Assembly: GCA_038065255.1 (NCBI GenBank)
Contig: JBBTRI010000017.1
Span: forward strand, 1-34,453
Source: Patescibacteria group bacterium
Lineage (GTDB): Bacteria > Patescibacteriota > Patescibacteriia > JACQRZ01
Length of the DNA stretch: 34,453 bases
Direction of reading: 5' to 3'
The position numbers and the translations under genes are program-made. The notes beneath the pieces are model-generated. The model saw nothing but the letters and a program-made list of their open reading frames with translations, made no database searches and had not been told where the DNA came from. The stretch's first letter is position 1, and the number at the start of each line of letters is the position of its first letter. Below are positions 14,277-17,298 of this stretch, piece by piece.

Positions 14277-14305
14277 TTGACAAAATCATGTAAATAGTGT
14301 ATACT
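14277..14305 (+). promoter_or_regulatory. Consensus-like promoter of the GC-rich lipoprotein gene
   Basis: TTGACA (14277-14282), a 17-bp spacer and TATACT (14300-14305). Predicted +1 is about 14312, giving a leader of about 25 nt with a GAAAGGAG ribosome-binding site. Confidence 0.88.
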
Positions 14306-14336
14306 GGTAAAGAATCAGCACGAAAGGAGACAAATC

Positions 14337-14702
14337 ATGCTGAAAGCCCATCGGGCTCCCTTGGTCGCGGCGATCTTCCTGGCCGGGATGTTGGCAATCC
14401 CTGGATGCCAGCCCGGAAGTCACCCCGCGCCCTCGCCGACCCACAAGGTTGGCAAACCCGTTTCCCTCATCGTCCAGTTGCGGCGGGAGAAGTCGCGGCG
14501 GATCAAGGCCGAAGCCAAGGTCACGGAGCTGCGCAAGCTGCTCCGGCAGGCCAAGGTGCGGCGTACGGTCGCCAAGTCGGACGCAACGAACGTCAATGTT
14601 CGCCACTCCGGCAAGGTTGATCTGGGCGGAACGGTCCGCCTGGAGATCGTCGCCCCCGCCGACATCAACGTCGTCCCTCTCCCCGCCCCGGCGGGAAAGT
14701 AG
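14337..14702 (+). CDS. GC-rich small lipoprotein with a basic coiled-coil
   Basis: The 121-residue product has a lipoprotein signal (VAAIFLAGMLAIPGC, mature Cys near residue 24). A Pro/Ser/His linker and a basic helical segment follow (LRREKSRRIKAEAKVTELRK, about residues 48-80), likely a short coiled coil. The C-terminal stretch is beta-prone and ends in a Pro/Ala tail. No family is recognised. The DNA is strikingly GC-rich, with GCC/GTC/CGG-type codons unlike the AT-leaning neighbours. It is also packaged with a consensus promoter, a good SD (AAAGGAG, 9 nt before the ATG) and its own terminator. Such a self-contained unit suggests horizontal acquisition or strong selection for high expression. 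Two other frames are also open because of the GC content; only this one has the SD and export signal. Confidence 0.8.
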   Translation: MLKAHRAPLVAAIFLAGMLAIPGCQPGSHPAPSPTHKVGKPVSLIVQLRREKSRRIKAEAKVTELRKLLRQAKVRRTVAKSDATNVNVRHSGKVDLGGTVRLEIVAPADINVVPLPAPAGK

Positions 14703-14727
14703 AAGAAAGGCAGGTATGAACACCCGC

Positions 14728-15359: not shown

Positions 15360-16181
15360 CTACATCTGTTCAAGGCGGCGGATGCGCTCTTCCATGGGGG
15401 GGTGCGTGGAGAAGAGATTGATTAAAAATGAAGGTTTGAAGGGGTTAACGATAAACAGGCTTGCCGTTGCCTGCTGGGCACCGGTGGGTTGGATCGGATG
15501 CATTTGAGAGGCTACGCCAAGCTTGCGCAATGCGGATGCAAGGGAATGCCCATGTCCAAGAAGGTGTGCTCCGCTTGCATCGGCTCCATATTCACGCGTG
15601 CGTGAAACCGCCATTTGAATGAGCATGGCAAGGAGGGGAGTAACAATAATAAGCAGCAGAAATACCAGTGGATTGCCCCGGCCTTCTTCATCCCGTCCAA
15701 GGCCAAACCCAATCATATGTACAAGGTAGGAAATAGCTCCCGCGAGGGTTGCCGCCATGGTGCAAACCAAAATATCATTATTTTTAATATGTGAGAGCTC
15801 GTGAGCAAGAACGCCTCGTAGTTCATCCTCTGTCAGGAGGGATAGGATACCCGTGGTAATGCCGATGCATGCATGTCCGGGATCCCTTCCTGTCGCAAAG
15901 GCATTTGGGGTGGGCATATCAATCTTGTAGACTTTTGGCATGGGAAGGCCTGCCTGCTGGGTAAGGCTGCCAATAATTCTGTATACAGCAGGATACTCTG
16001 CCATATTCATTTCTTTGGCTCTGTAGAGAGCTAAGACGATCTTATCCGAAAACCAATAGCTCCCCATGTTTATAACCAGCGCAATAATAAGCGCTAGGGA
16101 AAGCCCCTGTTCACCTCCAAACAAATAGCCAATTCCCAAGAACAACCCGGTTAGAAGACCTAAGTAGATGAGTGTTCGCAT
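15360..16181 (-). CDS. htpX: HtpX-type M48 membrane metalloprotease
   Basis: The 273-residue protein has two N-terminal transmembrane helices (about 3-21 and 25-41). The zinc motif HELSH is at residues 127-131. There are two further membrane segments, and the third zinc ligand lies in SRTREYGADASGAHL. The family tail ends with THPPMEERIRRLEQM. HtpX degrades misfolded membrane proteins and cooperates with FtsH in well-studied bacteria. ATG 16181 was chosen over the in-frame ATG at 16238. A TTGAAA-17-TAGTAT promoter lies within that extension, and the homologous start MRTLIYLG fits the family. Length is normal. It is the first of two M48 proteases in this window. Confidence 0.95.
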   Translation of the reverse strand: MRTLIYLGLLTGLFLGIGYLFGGEQGLSLALIIALVINMGSYWFSDKIVLALYRAKEMNMAEYPAVYRIIGSLTQQAGLPMPKVYKIDMPTPNAFATGRDPGHACIGITTGILSLLTEDELRGVLAHELSHIKNNDILVCTMAATLAGAISYLVHMIGFGLGRDEEGRGNPLVFLLLIIVTPLLAMLIQMAVSRTREYGADASGAHLLGHGHSLASALRKLGVASQMHPIQPTGAQQATASLFIVNPFKPSFLINLFSTHPPMEERIRRLEQM

Positions 16182-16216
16182 AGATAATGAGTTTTTGATT
16201 ACTAAAAGATATTCAA

Positions 16217-16245
16217 ATACTATCAAAAAAGCCACCATTTTTCAA
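16217..16245 (-). promoter_or_regulatory. htpX promoter
   Basis: On the minus strand TTGAAA (16245-16240), a 17-bp spacer and TAGTAT (16222-16217). It decides the start codon because the longer reading frame would overlap it. Confidence 0.7.
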
Positions 16246-16307
16246 GAATAAGGTGTGATTATGCTGTGGATAAGATATAGGATAAAGTGGCAAAAGTGTG
16301 GATAAAT

Positions 16308-16344
16308 AGTTGATACAGAAATTGAACACAAATAGGTATCAACT
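16308..16344. repeat. Perfect 9-bp inverted repeat with 19-bp spacer
   Basis: AGTTGATAC (16308-16316) and GTATCAACT (16336-16344) lie between the DnaA-box-like sites and the AT-rich tract. It is a candidate binding site for a dimeric protein, upstream of both htpX and the candidate ncRNA. Confidence 0.5.
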
Positions 16345-16401
16345 CAATAATATATTATAAATAAAACAAAAATAGCTAATTTATTATAGTAAGTTCGTAA
16401 A

Positions 16402-16430
16402 TTGACCATGTGGATTTTTTGTGCTATACT
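16402..16430 (+). promoter_or_regulatory. Promoter of the candidate ncRNA
   Basis: TTGACC (16402-16407), a 17-bp spacer and TATACT (16425-16430). Predicted +1 is about 16437. Confidence 0.8.
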
Positions 16431-16436
16431 TATCTA

Positions 16437-16872
16437 CAGATGAGTCAAAGAATGAACCTTTACTGGGCAGACTGTCGGTTATCCCGCTCATCCATAACCG
16501 AGAGAGGCGGCGATTACAGAAATCGTCGTAACAGCCTATCTCGTTCCCCTCTCCTAGTCCTCGAAAGGAATAGTTTCCGACCTATTACACGAAAAAACAA
16601 AAACAAAATAAGGTGACGTCTGATTCTCATAAAAGGCCCAAAGCGCACTTGGATCTTTTATGAGGGTCAGAATTACACCAAGGAACTGGAGGGAGGACAA
16701 GCGCTTCACGTCGGTAGAAGCCATCTCGTACCGCTTTTGGATAACCTTGATTCGCATATTGAGAGATCAGCATGCAATTAGGCCCATAAGCGACATGCGG
16801 GCGCGATCACTAAACAAACAACAAAAAGCTCCCATTTTGATGTGGGGGCGCAGGTGATCTGCGCCCCCTTTT
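16437..16872 (+). ncRNA. Candidate structured non-coding RNA, about 435 nt
   Basis: The unit runs from a good promoter to a strong terminator without a convincing gene. It holds many helices that can be paired by eye. One is CGGTTAT / ATAACCG. Another is GAGAgAGGC / GCCTaTCTC enclosing GGCGATT / AATCGTC. CTAgTCCT / AGGAaTAG has a CGAA loop. An A-rich single-stranded linker follows, then a 17-pair helix (16619-16635 with 16655-16671; two G-U pairs, otherwise perfect). Next come CAAGG / CCTTG and GCATG / CATGC. The terminator is GGGGGCGCAG / CTGCGCCCCC plus T4 (16844-16872). I looked for signature segments of RNase P RNA, tmRNA, SRP RNA and common riboswitches and did not see them. A 58-aa ORF (ATG 16440) overlaps the first third. 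Its basic, low-complexity product and overlap with the stems make it less likely than RNA. Confidence 0.55.
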
Positions 16873-16891
16873 GGTATATGGGGGTTTTTAG

Positions 16892-16897
16892 TATAAT
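16892..16897 (+). promoter_or_regulatory. -10 box of the dksA/traR-like gene
   Basis: Perfect TATAAT; predicted +1 is about 16904. The -35 region falls in the T-run of the preceding terminator and is weak. The leader (about 32 nt) can pair AATTGG with CCAATT just before the ATG. Confidence 0.5.
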
Positions 16898-16935
16898 TAG
16901 GTAATAAAGATTTGTAATTGGCAGTTTTCCAATTT

Positions 16936-17298
16936 ATGGCACTTCAACAACCATTTTTAGATAAACAGCAAGAAAAGCTTCTTTCTGATAAGCAAAAGAT
17001 AGAGCAGGATTTGGCGCGCTTCACTGTGCGCGATGGGGATTCGTTCAAAGTAATCTGGAACGAAAAGGGAGCCGGCGATGAAGATAATGCTGATGAATCC
17101 CGTGATTATGCCGATGCGCTTGCACTTCAGGGTACACTGAGTTCTGAGCTTAATGATATCAACACTGCGCTAAGCCATATTAAAGACGGAACCTATGGCC
17201 GCTGTAGCGCATGCGGCACGGATATTGCTGAAGCCCGCCTGGAAGCCCGCCCAATGGCAACGCTGTGCATTACCTGCCAGGAAAAATCAGGGCGCTAA
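16936..17298 (+). CDS. DksA/TraR-family zinc-finger protein
   Basis: The 120-residue protein has an N-terminal coiled-coil hairpin (about residues 8-85, with a central acidic stretch GDEDNADESRDYADAL). A C-terminal four-cysteine zinc finger follows (Cys90, Cys93, Cys111, Cys114: YGRCSACG...ATLCITC). Members bind RNA polymerase through the secondary channel and modulate initiation, classically with ppGpp, or serve related structural roles. In CPR genomes such proteins often precede lspA, as here: lspA follows after 6 bp. ATG 16936 is preferred to an in-frame TTG at 16918. Whether it acts on transcription here is not known. The tip residues are not obviously the DksA DxxDxA motif, although DESRDYADA is suggestive. 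Confidence 0.85.
   Translation: MALQQPFLDKQQEKLLSDKQKIEQDLARFTVRDGDSFKVIWNEKGAGDEDNADESRDYADALALQGTLSSELNDINTALSHIKDGTYGRCSACGTDIAEARLEARPMATLCITCQEKSGR

Follow-up and report, generated by a model that had tools for sequence, protein, structure and literature searches.

A probable new family of large structured RNA, often encoded upstream of dksA, in Patescibacteria

In a 34,453-nucleotide stretch of DNA from a Patescibacteria group bacterium (the window), approximately 700 bp without a convincing gene separate htpX (15360–16238, minus strand, divergent) from dksA, behind which lspA and comM complete an operon. What does this space encode? The original prediction, made from the letters alone, had placed a large structured non-coding RNA there, 435 nt long and bounded by a promoter and a strong terminator. 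Comparison with other Patescibacteria genomes supports a standalone gene for a trans-acting large structured RNA of a new family, a reading to which we assign a probability of roughly 0.8.

Both predicted boundaries were recovered. The window promoter (TTGACC-17-TATACT) matches the consensus at 10 of 12 positions, and a terminator-like hairpin at 16844–16868 is followed by a T-run. The terminator is, however, a larger, two-storey structure than first described: in the form shared with homologues, an inner hairpin is enclosed by pairing of GGGCGCGATCAC (16799–16810) with GTGATCTGCGCCC, which runs to 16866. Promoter scores of at least 10 occur in 92% of 131 homologues compared with 19% of shuffles, with the -10 element a median of 80 nt (interquartile range 70–96) 5′ of the core, and the best downstream terminator averages -28.2 kcal/mol in homologues compared with -16.7 kcal/mol when shuffled. 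The RNA gene, flanked by a predicted promoter and terminator of its own, is thus probably a separate transcription unit. A 5′ CUUUANAA motif, spotted by eye, occurs in 13% compared with 8% by chance, which is not clearly above expectation; neither this motif nor the AU-rich terminator-loop motifs are claimed as conserved.

The 449-nt stretch 16437–16885 has a minimum free energy (MFE) of -155.2 kcal/mol, compared with -120.7 ± 6.4 kcal/mol for shuffles (z -5.4), and none of 100 shuffles folds as stably. The long helix at 16619–16671, predicted with 17 pairs, comprises 18 consecutive pairs in the MFE fold, and the predicted A-rich linker is also present. The predicted CGAA-capped stem (about 16558–16569) can form, yet it lies outside the conserved fold because the bases of its 5′ side are part of the long-range helix A. 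The conserved core consists of helix A, hairpin H1, the A-rich linker, hairpin H2 and hairpin H3, with a kissing pseudoknot that had been missing from the original prediction. Only three elements have invariant sequence: in helix A, ACU and the GGU facing it; the A-rich linker; and, in H2, the GG/CC base. The H2 interior differs in length among genomes. The window's own helix A is divergent, including at ACU/GGU.

Table 1. Features of the RNA gene and its conserved neighbour in the window.
Feature	Positions	Strand	Remarks
Promoter of the RNA gene	16402–16430	+	-35 TTGACC 16402–16407; -10 TATACT 16425–16430; TG before the -10
Predicted non-coding transcript, about 436 nt	16437–16872	+	Promoter, terminator, fold z -5.4, homologues
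5′ domain, two variable hairpins (16439–16492 and 16499–16543)	16439–16543	+	MFE fold only; sequence not conserved
Helix A, 5′ strand	16547–16560	+	Pairs with 16683–16696; family consensus CUUCUCUACUNUUC
Hairpin H1	16569–16586	+	Loop 16574–16581 holds CCGAC (16577–16581), complementary to the H3 loop
A-rich single-stranded linker, AAAACAAAAACAAAA type	16587–16611	+	
Hairpin H2	16612–16679	+	Base GGUG/CACC, GG/CC near-invariant; contains helix 16619–16671
Helix A, 3′ strand	16683–16696	+	Family consensus GAANGGUAGAGAAG; near-invariant U.G wobble in the family
Hairpin H3	16703–16721	+	Loop GTCGG (16710–16714), predicted to kiss CCGAC of H1; permutation tests
3′ domain, long imperfect hairpin H4	16728–16798	+	Predicted, fold of 16722–16872 only
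Two-storey terminator	16799–16872	+	Outer stem 16799–16866 around hairpin 16828–16849, then TTTT
dksA/traR-family gene (PF01258)	16936–17298	+	Conserved neighbour, outside the RNA

A BLASTN search with the entire intergenic region found only short, chance-like matches in 57 related genomes, and homologues were therefore sought by synteny upstream of dksA. This gene was found in ten genomes of the family, one of them the window's own, and all nine others carry a positional counterpart upstream of it. The 5′ part of the counterparts comprises a promoter, a pyrimidine-rich strand, a hairpin with a CCGAC-like loop and an A-rich linker (shortest in locus L037); on the 3′ side follow a hairpin of the GGUG/CACC type, a partner strand rich in purines, another hairpin whose loop resembles GUCGG, and a large terminator. 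Among 40 genomes from many families of the class, about half have a recognizable arrangement of this kind upstream of dksA.

MAFFT and RNAalifold did not align the core when given ten full-length sequences. For training of a covariance model, R1, the core was cut by hand and N-padded, and variable loops were trimmed to hold the MAFFT register, an approximation confined to training. R1 has 133 positions and 29 pairs and was trained on 11 sequences; the window and loci L039, L040, L054, L055, L059 and L086 were held out. It finds the held-out window at 16546–16721 as the only match in the 1.09 Mb genome, with a score of 25.6 bits that is modest because of the divergent helix A. Within the class, R1 matched 78 of 230 genomes at E ≤ 0.01, exactly once each. 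A second model, R2, trained on 81 matches in an alignment that includes the window, matched 144 of 381 class genomes at E ≤ 1e-3, one copy each; the 62% without a match at this threshold may reflect real absence or missed divergence. In the phylum scan, R2 matched 29 of 380 genomes at E ≤ 0.01, of which 20 lie outside the class, each with a single match. All these genome counts are lower bounds, because the scans used strict search filters. Named genomes fetched via DksA represent Candidatus Uhrbacteria, Falkowbacteria, Buchananbacteria, Magasanikbacteria, Kerfeldbacteria, Komeilibacteria, Veblenbacteria and other Parcubacteria-group metagenome-assembled genomes, which together form the GTDB class ABY1; R2 finds the RNA in 37 of their 64 dksA loci (E ≤ 0.1), always upstream and on the same strand. 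The family is about 380–530 nt in length, occurs in one copy per genome, and extends through one Patescibacteria class and into other classes.

One weak extra R1 match (L097 188–314) and one extra R2 match (L182 777–897) were treated as chance. R2 also matched an 8.5 kb contig assigned to a bin of Candidatus Firestonebacteria, a lineage outside Patescibacteria (L249:1753–1972, 35.7 bits), with a dksA-like gene downstream; this match represents either misbinning or a wider distribution.

The homologues contain abundant compensatory changes, which the original prediction had named as a check. On an alignment of 80 distinct sequences fitted to the model, and hence biased towards the structure, 92.2% of cells form standard pairs, two-sided changes occur at 27 of the 29 pairs, and 440 cells are changed on both sides, compared with 131 ± 11 when shuffled and 44–84 in slid controls. 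In helix A, 93.2% of cells are paired and 13 of 14 pairs have two-sided changes, with the wobble position being U.G in 74 and U-A in 4 of the 80 sequences. The linker motif AAAA[CT]AAAA is found in 92.6% of 135 cores (3.9% expected). These comparisons demonstrate conservation of the predicted fold.

Because the covariation alignment was fitted to the model, a test on the loops of H1 and H3, whose pairing is absent from the model, is stronger. The two loops are unpaired in the model and tend to be complementary within genomes, and their sequences differ between genomes: CCGAC/GTCGG in the window, and elsewhere CTGAC/GTCAG, GCTAAC/GTTAGC, ACTGGC/GCCAGT, TTCCGAG/CTCGGAA, CCCTAAC/GTTAGGG, TGGCC/GGCCA and others. 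The longest Watson–Crick run between them has a mean of 4.31 bp within a genome, compared with 3.06 ± 0.10 bp when partners are permuted, and 0 of 20,000 permutations reached 4.31 bp. The signal was repeated in two further sets (4.56 compared with 3.13 ± 0.16 bp, and 4.19 compared with 3.15 ± 0.14 bp), the second of these overlapping the first set tested in some genomes. Complementarity maintained through such changes demonstrates that the H1 and H3 loops are conserved as a putative kissing pseudoknot. At loci L163, L164 and L064, H1 has a very short loop (UUCG-type in L163 and L164) and no kissing partner; the pseudoknot has therefore been lost in some lineages.

In the structure that we propose, helix A would enclose H1, the A-rich strand and H2, with H3 just outside. 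Pairing between the H3 and H1 loops would hold the core together as a compact pseudoknot through which the A-rich strand passes, and this strand may dock on a helix as a third strand or bind a partner. The RNA most likely acts in trans, in a structural or regulatory capacity or as a ribonucleoprotein; in the mechanism that we favour, the core would be the platform on which a protein of the gene-expression machinery binds, in functional coupling with DksA. DksA is an RNA-polymerase factor, and, going by synteny alone, the partner could be DksA itself or the transcription machinery, a tentative and rather doubtful identification.

The loop sequences fit intramolecular and intermolecular contact alike, and the H1–H3 kissing may be intermolecular. 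An RNA-only scaffold or homo-oligomer of the kind formed by OLE, ROOL and GOLLD, in which H1 and H3 would kiss between molecules, is for this reason a serious rival, although we consider it unlikely. Kissing loops join monomers in RNAs of this type (PMC12286853), and the RNA resembles them in being large and multi-domain, with a deeply conserved fold, kissing-loop contacts, a poorly structured linker and a function that is incompletely understood. However, at about 380–530 nt it is smaller than ROOL and GOLLD, its architecture is different, and it has neither a match to an Rfam model nor other Rfam similarity. Moreover, it is located on Patescibacteria chromosomes, in single copy beside housekeeping genes and near dksA, rather than phage-borne, and no phage or tRNA-island context was seen.

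The favoured explanation also has a more specific version, in which the RNA would be a 6S-like regulator of RNA polymerase and a partner of DksA, replacing or complementing 6S RNA. Its linkage to dksA is phylum-deep, it is encoded in single copy by its own gene as 6S RNA is, and a 6S search of the window's own genome found none; the possible link to the transcription machinery comes only via dksA synteny. Against this, the conserved fold has no apparent single rod with a central bubble, the RNA is about twice the size of 6S RNA, and the 6S model (RF00013) does not match it. In three genomes (G243, G323 and G375) a 6S-like match and the RNA coexist on different contigs; the RNA is therefore not 6S itself, and a 6S-like role has a low probability. 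A survey for 6S-like RNAs in Patescibacteria gave matches in 14 of 145 genomes at E ≤ 0.01 (for example, G251:C1:522179–522331, G243:C37:5884–6039 and G287:C12:138813–138972), only one of them above the Rfam gathering threshold, which suggests that 6S is under-annotated in the phylum.

Other known RNAs gave no match either. Rfam 15 (4,227 models) at the gathering score identified only three tRNAs in the window and nothing for the RNA, a lax search of 16200–17000 gave only chance-level matches, and 20 homologous loci yielded only tRNAs. RNase P RNA (RF00010) and tmRNA (RF00023) are of the same size class and contain pseudoknots, but neither model matches here, and the genome (G000) carries its own copies elsewhere, at G000:C10:44785–45385 (136.9 bits) and G000:C19:14920–15327 (128.1 bits), respectively; ARAGORN also found no tmRNA in the window. 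SRP RNA was considered because none was found in the window's own genome, and was rejected because a strict domain IV motif with a GNRA-type cap occurs in 0 of 133 homologues. The original prediction had reported the signatures of all three RNAs as absent, which agrees with these searches, and its interpretation of a large structured non-coding RNA gains support from the lack of an Rfam family together with the compensatory changes. A group I intron P1 helix, suggested by the U.G wobble in a pyrimidine/purine helix, was rejected, as no Rfam intron model matches. The RNA family lies outside everything curated in Rfam and is a new family; the open-access literature searched, a scope that leaves out subscription papers and bioRxiv, contained no published description of it.

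SRP RNA was not located in G000 by RF00169, or above the cut-off in 11 genomes of family f1 by RF01854, whereas RNase P RNA and tmRNA were easily found; the SRP RNA of these genomes may be very divergent.

The position of the RNA raises the possibility of a cis-acting leader, a riboswitch or attenuator, of the dksA–lspA–comM operon. Long structured leaders such as large riboswitches often lie upstream of the same gene and, like attenuators and like this RNA, end in a terminator. Among the 78 class matches, a dksA place is listed for 58, and in 43 of these the RNA immediately precedes dksA in the same orientation. Other classes retain the link: 11 of 20 matches are followed within 1 kb by dksA in the same orientation (with one gene between at L176). 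The remaining class matches comprise 15 with dksA elsewhere, 4 in genomes with no detectable DksA and 16 with no dksA place listed. Linkage to dksA and its loss in some genomes are both evident; with linked copies in and beyond the class as well as unlinked ones, the association is ancient and favoured, and not required. The genes beside unlinked copies vary and include rnhB-, cca- and methyltransferase-like ones. Furthermore, 77% of the named loci with linkage have a promoter-like site in the interval from the terminator to dksA, compared with 10.5% of shuffles, the window's own being weak and not clear. Given the copies that lie apart from dksA or in genomes with no detectable DksA, it is quite improbable that the RNA is simply a leader of dksA. 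Action in trans, with a functional or historical coupling to dksA, is very probable.

The copies away from dksA at L122, L123, L138, L142, L144, L145, L154 and L157 have recurrent neighbours. The unlinked RNA is often 3′ of a cytidylate-kinase-like gene (PF13189 in L138) and 5′ of an rnhB-, methyltransferase- or lspA-like gene; in another group it precedes a gene resembling that of the CCA-adding enzyme.

An open reading frame (ORF) of 58–68 amino acids (start 16410/16440) is open in the window, but a small-protein gene is scarcely credible, as is an unremarkable intergenic region that folds by chance: the ORF at 16440 matches nothing in Pfam and has no relative among the ORFs of 132 other homologous regions, and covariation and kissing-loop complementarity contradict a chance fold. 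Among 208 ORFs within the RNA, the 30 similar pairs are confined to small groups of related loci. The RNA gene lacks a coding function. Elsewhere in the window, at positions 14286–14723, several long ORFs overlap on the two strands, one of them lipoprotein-like (14337–14702, 121 amino acids), in a patch that is apparently G+C-rich relative to its surroundings.

Patescibacteria (CPR) are ultra-small bacteria that account for a large share of bacterial diversity and have genomes of about 1 Mb. In such genomes, the fold, the single copy and often the dksA neighbour of this RNA have been kept while its sequence drifted beyond the reach of BLAST, which points to strong selection for some function; the RNA is new and probably important. 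With the covariance model and the kissing-loop test, it can be sought directly in metatranscriptomes and tested at the bench. It may be an overlooked ancestral RNA of Patescibacteria, comparable in size to tmRNA and RNase P RNA, with an undescribed core function, perhaps exerted together with DksA in transcription control or in substituting for lost proteins, a possibility that we rate at somewhat below even odds.
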